Origin: Rhodospirillales bacterium
Lineage (GTDB): Bacteria; Pseudomonadota; Alphaproteobacteria; TMED109
Assembly: GCA_009839325.1 (NCBI GenBank)
Contig: VXPW01000077.1
Span: 1-64,000 of the forward strand
Reading direction: 5' to 3'
DNA length: 64,000 bases
The notes under the pieces are model-generated. The model saw only the letters and a program-made list of their open reading frames with translations. It was not told where the DNA came from and did not search any database. The position numbers and the translations under genes are program-made. Positions 48,097 through 53,879 of this stretch are shown here, one piece after another; within the stretch, counting starts at the first letter, position 1; each line of letters begins with the position of its first letter.

Positions 48097-48540
48097 ATGA
48101 GCGTTTCGAGCACGCTCCCCGTTGGGAGTTCGCGCTGGCAGGTGTTCCGCTTGGCCTGCCGCAACACCGCGGGTTGCCTTTTCGGCTGCGCGCTGGGCGA
48201 CTTGGGAACCATCTGGGTATGCCAGCTGCTGGCCGTTCCCTGGCCCGTCTGGTTGATCATGAGCCTCGCCATGGTCAATGGAATCATCACCAGTTTCGCA
48301 ATTGAGACCGTGATGCTCGCGCGGATCATGCGGTTACGCGAGGCGATGCGGACCGCCTTCGGGATGTCACTGCTGTCGATGCTCGGAATGGAAGTGGCCA
48401 TGAACGCCGTGGACATTCTGCTGACGGGAGGGGCGCGGCTGACATGGTGGGTGATCCCGCCGATGCTGGCGGCCGGGTTCCTGGTGCCGCTTCCTTACAA
48501 CTACTGGCGCTTGCGGGTTCTGGGGAAATCCTGTCACTGA
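48097..48540 (+). CDS. DUF4396 membrane protein
   Basis: About 147 residues with three to four hydrophobic helices. ACRNTAGCLFGCALGD and MLGMEVAMNAVDILLTGG are recognisable from the DUF4396 family. It may sense or carry a metal, given the Cys residues, but no function is known. ATG 48097 is preferred; a GTG at 48091 is in frame. It overlaps the 3' end of the TorD-like gene by 7 nt. Confidence 0.75.
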   Translation: MSVSSTLPVGSSRWQVFRLACRNTAGCLFGCALGDLGTIWVCQLLAVPWPVWLIMSLAMVNGIITSFAIETVMLARIMRLREAMRTAFGMSLLSMLGMEVAMNAVDILLTGGARLTWWVIPPMLAAGFLVPLPYNYWRLRVLGKSCH

Positions 48541-49181
48541 GGTCCGTGGTGTCGGACCATTGGCGAAACCTGCTCGAACGCGCGCTGTTCCGTTTCAAGA
48601 AACGCAGTGCCGGCTGATCCAACGGCCCGATAGAACACGGCATCCGGATGGACAGCGAGGTCGCTGAACAGGGACGGTATCCAGGTCCAAATGTGTTGAT
48701 CGAAGAAATCCTTTTGTGATGGCAGGGGGGCGGGCGATCCGAAGGTGCCCGCAATCAGCCCGGCCATTGCTTCGAGGATGGCGGCAGCGTGATCTTCCGG
48801 GTCCCCGGTGGAGCGTGTCGCGCGGACCCCGAGGTCCTGGAACGTGCGCCGGAGTTCAGCCAGCGGCTTCTCGTACATAAACCCGGTGAGGTAGTACGAC
48901 TGGTACGGATTGATCCCGGCCTCACCCAAGCCCAGAAAGAGATCTTCGTATTCGTGGCGAATGGCCTCCTCGGTCATCTGGCGGGCGCACGCACCCAGTT
49001 CGTTGAGCGAGCCAAGCAGCGACAGGTCGGCGTCGCCCTGCAGGGCGGCGGTCGCGGCCAGCAAGTCCGGCGCCGGCGGCGCATGGAGGAGCCCGGAGAA
49101 CAGCAGGTAGCACTGGGACCGGGAGCGGTCCTCGGCGTCCAGGAGGGGCGCGGTGTCGTCGCTGGCCGATTCCGAGCTCAA
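48534..49181 (-). CDS. TorD-family chaperone
   Basis: 215-residue all-helical protein of the TorD/DmsD/NarJ superfamily, which bind signal peptides of molybdoenzymes during cofactor insertion. EYEDLFLGLGEAGINPYQSYYLTG is the family's conserved core, with DHAAAILEAMAGLIAG and FFDQHIWTWIP. It overlaps DUF3306 by 4 nt. Partner enzyme is probably a formate dehydrogenase from the cluster content. Confidence 0.88.
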   Translation of the reverse strand: MSSESASDDTAPLLDAEDRSRSQCYLLFSGLLHAPPAPDLLAATAALQGDADLSLLGSLNELGACARQMTEEAIRHEYEDLFLGLGEAGINPYQSYYLTGFMYEKPLAELRRTFQDLGVRATRSTGDPEDHAAAILEAMAGLIAGTFGSPAPLPSQKDFFDQHIWTWIPSLFSDLAVHPDAVFYRAVGSAGTAFLETEQRAFEQVSPMVRHHGPQ

Positions 49182-49702
49182 GCCGGTTTCTCCGGGACCT
49201 CGGGATCGTCCGCATCCACGGCCGCAGCCTCGGACTCGGGCGTGGCCGATCCTGCCCCGGAATCCGCCGGCAGGTCTGCCGCCTGGGTTTCGGGGTCATC
49301 GCGTGCCGCGATCGGGTCACGGGCGTACTTCCGGCCCGCCCGAACTGCGTCGGCGATCGCCTCCGCGCCGCTTCTGTGGAGAGAGGCAAAGTCGTCGTCG
49401 TAGTCGTTCAGCCCGTCCAGGTTGGCGAGGACAGGGTCGCTCTGCCACAGCCGTCGAAGTGCCAGGCGTCGTAGCGCAGGTGCAACGGAGCGTTCCAGGA
49501 AGGGGCGATAGTCCGCCTCCGGTCCCAGCTCTTCCACATCAGGCAAGTCGGCTGGCTTCGCGAGATCAGTATCTTCCTGATCTCTGCCTGTCGGCGGCGA
49601 AGCGGCTTGATCGGCTGTGGTTTCATCGGACGAGGCAGCAGTCGGTTCTGACCGTCGAGCGTCCACCGCCCGCTTGGACCATCGGCTGAAGAAGTTCCTC
49701 AT
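49178..49702 (-). CDS. DUF3306 protein
   Basis: 174 residues beginning FFSRWSKR, followed by a low-complexity acidic stretch and a central LRRLALRRLWQSDPVLANLDGLNDYDDDF, the DUF3306 core. Ends in an acidic Ala/Pro-rich tail. Family members are found beside formate dehydrogenase genes; the molecular role is unknown. It overlaps its neighbours on both sides by 4 nt. Confidence 0.8.
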   Translation of the reverse strand: MRNFFSRWSKRAVDARRSEPTAASSDETTADQAASPPTGRDQEDTDLAKPADLPDVEELGPEADYRPFLERSVAPALRRLALRRLWQSDPVLANLDGLNDYDDDFASLHRSGAEAIADAVRAGRKYARDPIAARDDPETQAADLPADSGAGSATPESEAAAVDADDPEVPEKPA

Positions 49703-50151
49703 CGCTGAGACCGGGGCGGTCGGGCAAAGGATTCCGGCGACGACCTGGGCCCCCGCTTGCGTTTCCGAAACGGCTCGTCGACGTGATGGCGGCGCACGAA
49801 CGCCGTGACCCAGGCCGCGACCGAGGTCGGCATGGGAACGGCGTCGACGTGCGAATCGGCGTCATCCGCATAATCCTGTGCCTCGAATGGGCAGACGGTC
49901 GCCAGGAAAGGCTCGGAGGCGGTGCCGTCAGGACCGGGCCGAAGAACCACGTAGACAGCGCGATCGGCAGCGAGATTTGTTCTGTATCCTTCTGTCTCCT
50001 TGCGGTGAAGTTGCAGCACGAGCTGCGGCGAGTCGGAAACCGCGGGGTCGCCTTCGGGCACGACTGCCACCGCTTGCCAGACGGTGGAGGCCCATCGACC
50101 CGAACCTTCACTGCGCTCAAGCGTGATTCGCACCGGCAGCCGGGTTCGCAT
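49699..50151 (-). CDS. DUF3305 protein
   Basis: 150 residues from ATG 50151. PVRITLERSEGSGRWASTVWQAVAVVP and VYVVLRPGPDG are typical of DUF3305. It is always seen near DUF3306 and formate dehydrogenase maturation genes; function unknown. The upstream in-frame extension is low-complexity and was left out. Confidence 0.78.
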   Translation of the reverse strand: MRTRLPVRITLERSEGSGRWASTVWQAVAVVPEGDPAVSDSPQLVLQLHRKETEGYRTNLAADRAVYVVLRPGPDGTASEPFLATVCPFEAQDYADDADSHVDAVPMPTSVAAWVTAFVRRHHVDEPFRKRKRGPRSSPESFARPPRSQR

Positions 50152-50411
50152 CTTGCCTCTCCTCGCTGTCCACTGAGGAATCCGAATACTACGCGACTGC
50201 CAGAAGCCGATGTGGTACCGCCCCAAGGATTCGAATCGCCGGTGTTCTGTCGACGGTGCAGGCGAGCCGCTCGGCTGTGGGTACCGATCGCCTCGGGACT
50301 GCCGGGCCATTCCAGTTTTCCTGTCTGAAGGCGTGGGAGGACGGCTCATCGACACCTCATGCAATGTACTGACGCTAAGCTGTACGGGTGTCGTTTCCGC
50401 CTGCCTGAGAG

Positions 50412-52133
50412 GTGCCGGCTGCAGTGACAACGAATCGCTCACCACTCGACGCCGCGTCGGCGGCGTGGACGAAGGAGCCCGTGCCGCCTGGACGCGCGCT
50501 CCACGTGCACGGGGCCGGAAGGGTGCTGATCGTCGGGACGTGGGCGCACGCGGTGCCGGCCGCCCGAGAGTTGGCTGACGGCAATGCGGTGACGATCTTG
50601 TCCGCCGACGGCCCGGGCGACCGCATCGACGATCCGGTGGAGGCGTCCGTTCGTGTCGTGGTGGGCAGGCCAGAGCGGGTGGCCGGGCACGTGGGCGCCT
50701 GGATCGTGACGCTGCGAGACAGCGACGAACAGCTCGAGGCGGATGCGGTCCTCGATCTCACGCGCGGACCGCCTCCGCTCCAGGCCCACGAGCTCCGACG
50801 CGGGTACGTGCGTTGCGATCCGCGGAGCCCGCGGGCCCTGCAGGTCGGCTTGCAAGCGGTCGCCGAGTGCCGTGGCGACCTTGAGTACCCGCTATTCGTT
50901 GACGTTCGCAGCGAGTACTGCGCCCACTCGCGCAGCCAGATCCTGGGTTGCACCCGCTGCCTTGACCTCTGCCCACCCGGGGCGATTGCACCCGCGGGCG
51001 ACCACGTGGCGCTGGACCCGCTGGTTTGCGCCGGCTGCGGTTTGTGCGTCGGTGCGTGCCCGACGGGAGCACTTCGCTACGACCTTCCGGCCGAAGACGC
51101 ATCCTTGCGACGACTGCGCGCCGCGTTGCGGGCGTGGCACGAGCATTCCGGACACGCTCCGATCCTGCTCCTGCACGGTGACGAATTTGGCGCCGACCTG
51201 ATCGAAGCGGCGCGGGAACAGGCCGGCCATGATCTTTCCTGCCTGCTGCCGCTCTCATTGGGTGTTGTTTCGCAAGCGGGCGCCGAATTGATGACGATGG
51301 CCCTGGCCTGGGGAGCTTCACATGTCGTGTGCCTCAGTAACCCGGCCCGTCCGGATACGCTCCGTCCCATTGACGATCAAATGGCAGTGGTGAACGCCAT
51401 TACTGAGGCTCTCGGGTTCGGGGCCCGCGCGGTCCATTCCGCCACGGCCGATCCGGACGCCCTGCTCGCGCTCCTGCAATCCCTCGAAAGCGGAACGGAC
51501 TGGCCGGCGGCCGAATTCCTGGCACTCGGCGAACGACGTGCCGGCGCACTGCAGGCTGTCCGTCACCTGCATGCGCACGCCAAGGTGGCTGCCGATCCGA
51601 TCATCTTGCCCAAGGGCGCGGCCTTTGGCGCCGTCGAGGTTGATCCGGACGCTTGCACCCTGTGCCTGGCTTGCGTCGGCGCTTGCCCAACCGGCGCGCT
51701 GCAGGATGATCCCGACACTCCCCGATTGGGCTTTCAGGAAGATGCATGCGTCCAGTGCGGCGTGTGTCGCGCGACCTGCCCGGAGGACGCCATTACCCTG
51801 CAGCCAAGACTGCGGCCGGGCCTTGGTCCCGGCGCCGGGCGCACGCTGCACGAAGAACAGCCATTTGCCTGCGTGTCCTGCGGAAAGCCGTTCGGCGTCC
51901 GTCGGTCCATCGAACGGACCCTGGAAAGACTCGCCGGCCATCCCATGCTGGCGATGGATGCCCGCCTGGAGCAGCGTGTGAAGATGTGTGCGGATTGCCG
52001 GGTCATCGACCAGTTCCGCGAACCTCTCGCCACCGGCGAGAAGGCCCGCCCAAGGGTCCGTACAACCGACGACTACCGATCCGGTTCGGGCGAGAAGCCT
52101 GGAGGCAAGGGCTTTGGCGGGGGGCGAAAATGA
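50412..52133 (+). CDS. Poly-ferredoxin (four [4Fe-4S] motifs), formate dehydrogenase cluster type
   Basis: 573 residues. Four Cys sets are seen: C170/180/183/187, C206/209/212/216, C415/418/421/425 and C446/449/452/456. The first differs from the CxxCxxCxxxCP pattern. Two further CxxC pairs at 487/490 and 526/529 could bind zinc or another cluster. The middle part (about 240-350) resembles a HdrD/VhuD-like domain. It is probably an electron carrier or scaffold for a molybdoenzyme. Start GTG 50412 or 50424. The stop overlaps mobB. Confidence 0.83.
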   Translation: MPAAVTTNRSPLDAASAAWTKEPVPPGRALHVHGAGRVLIVGTWAHAVPAARELADGNAVTILSADGPGDRIDDPVEASVRVVVGRPERVAGHVGAWIVTLRDSDEQLEADAVLDLTRGPPPLQAHELRRGYVRCDPRSPRALQVGLQAVAECRGDLEYPLFVDVRSEYCAHSRSQILGCTRCLDLCPPGAIAPAGDHVALDPLVCAGCGLCVGACPTGALRYDLPAEDASLRRLRAALRAWHEHSGHAPILLLHGDEFGADLIEAAREQAGHDLSCLLPLSLGVVSQAGAELMTMALAWGASHVVCLSNPARPDTLRPIDDQMAVVNAITEALGFGARAVHSATADPDALLALLQSLESGTDWPAAEFLALGERRAGALQAVRHLHAHAKVAADPIILPKGAAFGAVEVDPDACTLCLACVGACPTGALQDDPDTPRLGFQEDACVQCGVCRATCPEDAITLQPRLRPGLGPGAGRTLHEEQPFACVSCGKPFGVRRSIERTLERLAGHPMLAMDARLEQRVKMCADCRVIDQFREPLATGEKARPRVRTTDDYRSGSGEKPGGKGFGGGRK

Positions 52134-52639
52134 TCCCCAGGATCGGAATCGTTGGGTGGCAGGGAAGCGGCAAGACGTCGCTGATCGCCCGCCTGATCCC
52201 CGAATTCAACCGGCGCGGCCACACGGTTTCGACTTTGAAGCACGCACACGCGAGCTTTGAAATTGACCGGCCGGGGAAGGACAGTTTCGTTCACCGCGAG
52301 GCTGGCGCCCGCGAGGTGCTGGTCGCGTCGGGACAGCGCTGGGCGCTGATCCACGAGGAACGCAATGTTGACCGCACCCCAGAGCGTTTGATCGCCCGCA
52401 TGGAGGCGGTCGACGTCCTGCTGATCGAAGGCTGGAAGGGCGGGGCCCACAAGAAGATCGAAGTGCATCGCCCGGCCCTGAGACGCCCGCTCCTTGTGGC
52501 CGATGACCCGATGATCATCGCCATCGCATCCGATGCCCCGGTGTCGGAGTGCGATCGGCGAATCCTCCCGCTGAACGACGAGACCGCCATCGTTGACTTC
52601 ATTCTCGTCGAACTCGGCATTTCGAACCGTGCAGCTTAA
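52130..52639 (+). CDS. mobB: Molybdopterin-guanine dinucleotide biosynthesis protein B
   Basis: 169-residue P-loop GTPase. GIVGWQGSGKTSL is the Walker A and LLIEGWKGG the Walker B region, with TLKHAHASFEIDRPGKDS between. It aids conversion of Mo-molybdopterin to the bis-MGD cofactor used by formate dehydrogenases. The ATG overlaps the poly-ferredoxin stop (ATGA). Confidence 0.93.
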   Translation: MIPRIGIVGWQGSGKTSLIARLIPEFNRRGHTVSTLKHAHASFEIDRPGKDSFVHREAGAREVLVASGQRWALIHEERNVDRTPERLIARMEAVDVLLIEGWKGGAHKKIEVHRPALRRPLLVADDPMIIAIASDAPVSECDRRILPLNDETAIVDFILVELGISNRAA

Positions 52640-53879
52640 GGACGACTGTTTCGCCTTTGGCGGCGGCCTGGTTCCGCTCGCGGAAGCCCATGCCGAGCTG
52701 GGCCGTCGACTCGAGCCATTGACCTTGCCGGTCGACGTACCGGTCGGATCGTCCTCTGGACGAACTCTCGCGGAAGACATCGCCAGCGACCGTGACGTAC
52801 CGCCGCACGCAAACACGGCCGTCGACGGTTACGCGTTCCGGTTCTCGGACTTGGCAGAGAAAGGTGAAGGGTGGCTGAACCTGATTGGTAGCGCAGGCGC
52901 GGGACATCCCTGGGCCGGTGACCTGCCTGACGGGAGCACCGTGAGGGTCCTCACCGGCGCTGTGCTGCCGTCGGATACGGACACGGTCGTGATGGAGGAA
53001 GATGCGGAACTCCGCGGCCAACGCGTGTACGTACCTGCTGGGCTGAGACAGGGAGCGAATGCACGCTCTGCTGGTGAAGACCTGCAGGTGGGGGCAACCG
53101 TGCTGCGGGCAGGTCAGCGAATCGGGCCCGCTGAAACCGGAATCCTTGCGGCACTCGGACGCACTTCGGTCAAGGTGCGGAGCCGGCTGCGCATCGGAGT
53201 CCTCTCAACCGGAGACGAGCTCGCCGACCCTGGCCGCGCCCTTGAAACGGGACAGATCTACGACTCCAACCGGGCCATGCTTTGCGCGCTCGTTCGCGCT
53301 ACTGGCGCCGACGTCAGCGATCTCGGCATCGTGGCCGATCGTGCCGAGGATGTGCAACAAGAATTCGCGCAGGCGGCAAGTTTCCATGATCTGCTGATCG
53401 TTTCCGGAGGCATGTCGGAAAGCGAGGAGGATCATGTACGGCGAACGCTGAACGATGCCGGTTCCCTCTACTTCTGGCGCCTCGCGGTCAAGCCAGGACG
53501 CCCGGTCGGCCTGGGCCAGTTTGCCGAGACTCCGGTCGTCGGCTTGCCGGGCAATCCGGTAGCGGCCTTCGTGATGTTTCTGGTGATTGCCCGGCCGGTC
53601 ATCGCCCGGTTGGCCGGGGAGAATTGGAAGTTTCCGTCGGGAGTGCCAGCCGAGTGTGGGTTCACGTACAAGAAAAAAACCGGTCGTCGCGAGTTTCTGC
53701 GGGTCCGCCGCCGTTCCGCGGAGCACCCTGAGGTGCTTGAACTGTTTCCGCGCTCCGGCGCCGGCATCCTCTCCTCGGTGGCTTGGGCTGATGGACTCGC
53801 GGTGTTGCTGGAGAACGTCAGCGAAGTGCGACCCGGTCAGCCGGTGAGCTGGCTGCCGTTTCACGGGCTGCTGGATTGA
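52629..53879 (+). CDS. moeA: Molybdopterin molybdenumtransferase MoeA (second copy)
   Basis: 416 residues from GTG 52629, overlapping mobB by 11 nt. The MoeA motifs TAVDGYAFR, LTGAVLPSDTD, LSTGDEL and VKPGRPVGLG are kept, so it should be active. SGGMSESEEDHV replaces the GGVSVGxxD seen in the first copy, with a Ser for the Gly. Its position suggests a role tied to the maturation island. Confidence 0.9.
   Translation: MQLKDDCFAFGGGLVPLAEAHAELGRRLEPLTLPVDVPVGSSSGRTLAEDIASDRDVPPHANTAVDGYAFRFSDLAEKGEGWLNLIGSAGAGHPWAGDLPDGSTVRVLTGAVLPSDTDTVVMEEDAELRGQRVYVPAGLRQGANARSAGEDLQVGATVLRAGQRIGPAETGILAALGRTSVKVRSRLRIGVLSTGDELADPGRALETGQIYDSNRAMLCALVRATGADVSDLGIVADRAEDVQQEFAQAASFHDLLIVSGGMSESEEDHVRRTLNDAGSLYFWRLAVKPGRPVGLGQFAETPVVGLPGNPVAAFVMFLVIARPVIARLAGENWKFPSGVPAECGFTYKKKTGRREFLRVRRRSAEHPEVLELFPRSGAGILSSVAWADGLAVLLENVSEVRPGQPVSWLPFHGLLD

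Follow-up and report, generated by a model that had tools for sequence, protein, structure and literature searches.

An association of TorD or DmsD with fdhGHI, DUF3305, DUF3306, fer4 and fdh-tat was published in 2015 (Bay et al., PMC4464133). In FDH3-type formate dehydrogenase clusters of this kind, these accessory families lie beside FdhB, FdhC and an FdhA that carries a twin-arginine translocation (Tat) signal, usually in divergent order. A second system to which our locus can be likened by description is that of FdhM, a TorD homologue of Campylobacter jejuni. In the parts of the account on which we draw, this NarJ/TorD-family chaperone is encoded with the periplasmic FdhABC and is needed for its biogenesis alongside FdhD, and those parts make no mention of DUF3305, DUF3306 or a poly-ferredoxin (PMC10609526). 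Here we describe a gene island at positions 48097–53879 of a 64,000-nucleotide stretch of DNA, called the window, from a Rhodospirillales bacterium (GenBank assembly GCA_009839325.1, 2.73 Mb and 92% complete). The window is bases 1–64000 of contig VXPW01000077.1 (C52; 96,617 bp) and, because it begins at base 1, window and contig numbering agree. The island has the same accessory families and the divergent order of the FDH3 clusters and, as with FdhM, its NarJ/TorD-family chaperone goes with FdhABC and FdhD. It differs from the FDH3 clusters by a break between TorD and fdhX that is filled by 34 kb of unrelated genes. The accessory cluster is of a known kind and otherwise ordinary, and in one genus it has become separated from its enzyme. 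We consider it very probable (about 0.87) that the island provides the accessory genes of a single respiratory formate dehydrogenase system of the FDH3 type, the remainder of which is 34 kb downstream.

The island has two arms that diverge from each other, DUF3305-DUF3306-TorD (minus strand) and poly-ferredoxin-MobB-MoeA (plus strand). It is listed here with one neighbouring gene:

48534–49181, minus strand: TorD/NarJ-family chaperone (Nitrate_red_del; PF02613, 8.8e-24, 84.5 bits, cut-off 22.2)
49178–49702, minus strand: DUF3306 protein (PF11748, 3.1e-21)
49699–50151 (conserved part; open reading frame up to 50445), minus strand: DUF3305 protein (PF11749, 1.7e-28)
50412–52133, plus strand: HdrA/MvhD/HycF-like iron-sulfur protein of 573 amino acids (aa), a four-cluster ferredoxin called the poly-ferredoxin here
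52130–52639, plus strand: MobB (PF03205, 2.1e-45; TIGR00176 above cut-off)
52593–53879, plus strand: MoeA, second copy (PF03453/PF00994/PF03454)
48097–48540, plus strand: DUF4396 membrane protein (PF14342), a neighbour outside the system

An earlier note, made from the sequence of the window, had placed seven genes here in two tightly overlapping, divergent arms. All seven are present, each above its Pfam cut-off. The overlaps are also real, since neighbours within an arm share 4 bases each (the stop of the poly-ferredoxin and the start of MobB share ATGA) and MobB and MoeA share 47, but the arms hold six genes rather than seven. DUF4396 adjoins eno, is convergent to TorD and overlaps only its end; it was rejected as a member of the system because the fdh clusters of other genera, examined at 37 loci and 80 named loci, do not include it. 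MoeA was correctly called a second copy, there being two in the genome, both in the window, one at 36.2 kb and the other at 52.7 kb.

The idea of an orphan island was rejected after the rest of the contig had been read. A complete FDH3-type operon lies at 87,530–95,720, in the order fdhX-fdhA-fdhB-fdhC and then fdhD and mobA:

87,530–87,739: fdhX, a 69-aa Tat-signal protein directly upstream of fdhA
87,772–90,594: FdhA, 940 aa (PF00384 and motifs)
90,608–91,198: FdhB, FDH3 beta subunit (NF038355, 344 bits, curated cut-off 240)
91,366–92,460: FdhC, cytochrome b gamma subunit (TIGR01583, 151 bits, cut-off 115.85)
94,159–95,085: FdhD-family gene (under curated cut-offs)
95,085–95,720: MobA (matches the first half of NF011058)

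The start of fdhX is about 34 kb beyond the island and 23.5 kb beyond the last base of the window, and the accessory genes seem to lack an enzyme because the window edge cuts off this operon. The suggestion that the enzyme lies elsewhere was borne out. The statement that the 64 kb contain no molybdoenzyme holds for two large families, matches to PF00384 and PF02738 all falling outside 1–64000 (sulfite-oxidase-type PF00174 was not searched). Six molybdopterin oxidoreductase genes were found in the assembly with PF00384, and the one on the window's contig is FdhA. This protein has the twin-arginine signal RRAFL, a 4Fe-4S motif of the form CxxCxxxC-C (C59/C62/C66/C94) and C184-H185, which we take to be at the position where formate dehydrogenases have Cys-His or selenocysteine (Sec)-His. 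The identity of fdhX comes from its place and from a C-terminal motif as in the fdhX of relatives, with a score below the family cut-off. The operon is without a DUF3305, DUF3306 or TorD gene of its own, and its accessory genes are fdhX, fdhD and mobA. DUF3305 and the TorD/NarJ family are each single-copy in the genome, with both copies in the island. The finding named beforehand as speaking against the earlier note, an fdh operon furnished with separate copies of the accessory genes, is thus not what this genome contains.

DUF3305, the poly-ferredoxin and the FDH3 beta subunit were scored in 192 alphaproteobacterial genomes. DUF3305 occurs in 29 of these and the poly-ferredoxin in the same 29. 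The beta subunit was above its cut-off in 28 of the 29 genomes with DUF3305 and in none of the 163 without it (hypergeometric 8e-33, with kinship ignored). In 25 of the 28 genomes DUF3305 is no more than 6.5 kb from FdhB, and the three exceptions are two genomes of the window's genus and one in which the genes are on separate contigs. The usual order, found in Bradyrhizobium, Methylobacterium and Bosea among others, has the poly-ferredoxin divergent from DUF3305-DUF3306-TorD-fdhX-FdhA-FdhB-FdhC. A wider search with one genome per species showed that the poly-ferredoxin is present in many Rhodospirillales and Hyphomicrobiales (including Azospirillum, Bradyrhizobium, Methylobacterium, Bosea and Nisaea), and most of its loci are surrounded by parts of the same fdh cluster. 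These data support the earlier claim that the families accompany formate dehydrogenase and give no support to the alternative of a different molybdenum or tungsten protein as the client of the set.

The accessory genes adjoin fdhABC in most relatives but not in the window's genome, where they are 34 kb away, and we examined seven genomes of its genus, in six of which the distance between the halves could be measured. Each of the seven carries a single DUF3305 and a single close FdhA. The two are about 37–50 kb apart in the six genomes and on separate contigs in the other, and the break point in the genus is between TorD and fdhX. Where contigs reach, the genes flanking both halves are conserved, and the island genes are all intact and syntenic, with identities of 81–98% among the closest members.

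Other genes lie beside or within the operon. A xanthine-oxidase-family pair (small iron-sulfur and MoCoBD_1/2 large subunits; C52:84249-87004, L010:4250-7005) is directly upstream of fdhX-fdhA, a position that is conserved among the genus members read. Between fdhC and fdhD is a gene for a voltage-gated-type ion channel (Ion_trans; C52:92710-93651, L010:12711-13652), likewise conserved among those members.

The system itself is already known, and the poly-ferredoxin is the one intriguing member of the island. Its cysteines had been described as an irregular first set and two extra CxxC pairs. Both features are present, but they are not odd for the family. In a comparison of 30 homologues, the first set (C170-x9-C180-x2-C183-x3-C187) and the pairs C487/C490 and C526/C529 were invariant in 30 of 30, so that they are better seen as a family hallmark. 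Most homologues are about 90–100 residues longer at the N-terminus, where they carry C-x-C...C...C. This N-terminal domain is missing from the window protein and from the six genus members read, in which the C-terminal cysteines are all kept, and in the members read no other frame or neighbouring stretch was found to encode it.

For structure matches, AlphaFold2 was used to model a full-length relative from Pelagibius marinus (L163, 691 aa) and not the shorter window protein. The model has a mean predicted local distance difference test (pLDDT) score of 91.2 and a predicted template modelling (pTM) score of 0.84. Residues 4–353 resemble HdrA (VIA Z 12–13 over 323–337 residues; Foldseek 1e-11 to 1e-12), residues 357–484 resemble MvhD (5odh_D; Z 11.6, 128 residues) and residues 517–648 resemble Escherichia coli HycF (VIA Z 10.6, 25% identity). 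The overall fold is that of the N-terminal half of HdrA in methanogens (5odc/5odh, 7bkb), with an MvhD-like stretch after it; about 350 residues match an HdrA of about 650, and a HycF-like tail is fused here. For the N-terminal domain, a sequence-profile search returned no PDB match, and its kinship with HdrA is supported by comparison of the modelled structure. Scores against the curated HdrA models were 56.7 and 39.3 bits, far below the cut-offs of 1100 and 1400. The flavin motif GxGxxG is not kept, reading YGxDExA in relatives and VGTWAHA in the window protein, which makes HdrA-like bifurcation unlikely. The C-terminal profile of the relative aligns with HycF 34–161 and places four cysteines on HycF C117/C120/C155/C158, and the match to the curated HycF-type model NF009053 was 54.6 bits (cut-off 204). 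In the structures of the E. coli formate hydrogenlyase (7z0s_F, 7z0t_F), these HycF cysteines bind one metal, tentatively identified as iron, adjacent to the formate dehydrogenase subunit (PMC9474812). Both proteins have a pair of 4Fe-4S motifs and, after it, CxxC-x(about 35)-CxxC. They differ in that HycF is a 180-residue subunit, whereas the module here is the tail of a 573–690-residue protein with no hydrogenase nearby, and in that HycF Arg122 is a lysine in the poly-ferredoxin. We found no literature on the poly-ferredoxin itself; the papers retrieved on HdrA, MvhD, HycF and formate dehydrogenase mainly concern methanogens, bifurcation and other formate dehydrogenases. A bolder reading, which we consider less likely than not, is that it could be an unnamed, FDH3-dedicated mosaic of HdrA, MvhD and HycF that docks on formate dehydrogenase by a HycF-type metal site and exchanges electrons with it in the cytoplasm, either for activation before export or as a second, non-respiratory outlet for electrons from formate.

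A clue to DUF3305 comes from NCBIfam NF011058, a model for the fusion of MobA with a DUF3305 domain that is seen in some organisms. The genome's MobA fits the first half of this model and DUF3305 the second, which places DUF3305 near the molybdopterin guanine dinucleotide (MGD) step. An AlphaFold2 model of DUF3305 had a pLDDT of 90.6 but did not convincingly match any PDB entry (best Foldseek E 0.2), and its role is therefore read from the MobA fusion model and the context. Compared with most relatives, the window's DUF3305 is short of some 20 residues mid-domain. The TorD-like protein did not reach the equivalog cut-offs of TorD or DmsD.

From these observations, the set would most likely build FdhA in the cytoplasm ahead of its export by Tat. 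By analogy with the roles established for their relatives, MoeA, MobA and MobB would synthesize Mo-bis-MGD, FdhD would sulfurate it and the TorD-like protein would guard apo-FdhA and its signal peptide, as proposed for FdhM in the parts of the C. jejuni account cited above (PMC10609526). DUF3305 may assist near the MGD step with DUF3306 as its partner. The poly-ferredoxin would probably dock on FdhA or FdhAB by its HycF-like module and exchange electrons during maturation. A precedent is offered by E. coli HydN and YsaA, ferredoxin-like proteins that bind formate dehydrogenase and affect its activity (PMC6004506).

A different role for the poly-ferredoxin, one that is compatible with our explanation of the rest of the island, seems less likely. 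Rather than a maturation factor, it may be a protein that takes electrons from formate dehydrogenase or gives them to it in the cytoplasm, in a formate-linked Hdr-like complex beside the respiratory chain. Each of its three module types carries electrons in complexes that have, or are able to have, a formate dehydrogenase: chains of the HdrA and MvhD type in the Fdh-Hdr complex 7bkb and HycF in E. coli formate hydrogenlyase. HydN and YsaA show that more than one ferredoxin-like partner is open to E. coli FDH-H (PMC6004506). However, the Tat signal of FdhA and the cytochrome b subunit suggest a periplasmic orientation of the mature enzyme, the poly-ferredoxin is without an evident signal peptide and no HdrB or HdrC gene was seen adjoining it.

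Several results weigh against our assignment of the island to FDH3. FdhA falls short of the curated cut-off in each of the two models for formate dehydrogenase alpha subunits (TIGR01591 and TIGR01553), so that its naming depends on the beta subunit, context and motifs, and formate as its substrate is likewise deduced from the FDH3 beta subunit and context. The genome also has an FdsA-like enzyme (C53), a BisC-like enzyme (C89) and a PhsA/Dms-like complex (C5), which might also draw on TorD and the cofactor genes. Finally, the exception genome G107, about 98% complete, has DUF3305, DUF3306, FdhD, MobA and an intact poly-ferredoxin (L126, G107:C3:100000-119900), but no FDH3 beta subunit above cut-off, and none of its seven PF00384 genes is close to FdhA. 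There, the usual place of TorD-FdhABC is filled by other genes, DNA-repair genes as read by eye. The closest formate-dehydrogenase-like gene of G107 is FdsA-like and of the nicotinamide adenine dinucleotide (NAD) type, 70% identical to the FdsA-like enzyme of the window's genome. Its set may be a remnant, or its parts may be able to serve an NAD-type formate dehydrogenase. We withdrew a suggestion that the G107 poly-ferredoxin is decayed, since the TGA in question is the normal gene end. In the window's genome, the candidate NAD-type formate dehydrogenase on C53 (L008:4652-9071) consists of a protein with NuoE-like and NuoF-like domains and then the FdsA-like alpha subunit.

The presence of these enzymes, together with a G107 that keeps most of the set beside an FdsA-like enzyme, would fit an island that mainly serves the FdsA-like NAD-dependent, BisC-like or PhsA/Dms-like enzyme. 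We consider this improbable, given that the FDH3 beta subunit is present in nearly every set-bearing genome, is usually adjacent and is absent wherever DUF3305 is, and that both halves are retained throughout the genus. Least likely is that the halves are functionally unlinked, the island being a relic and FDH3 maturing without it. The physical split, the lost N-terminal domain of the poly-ferredoxin and the internal deletion in the DUF3305 gene would agree with decay, but the genes are intact and syntenic, the identities among closest members are high and the C-terminal cysteines are all retained. Assignment of the island to the FDH3 operon remains our preferred explanation.

Together, these data settle an apparent orphan, the enzyme of which is just beyond the window edge, and they indicate that gene distance alone can be a misleading guide to which maturation genes serve which molybdoenzyme. 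They also raise the question of why DUF3305 and a large HdrA/MvhD/HycF-like iron-sulfur protein accompany FDH3 in 28 of 28 FDH3 genomes sampled. Because heterologous production of molybdenum and tungsten formate dehydrogenases is limited by maturation, maturation factors that have gone unrecognised would be useful.

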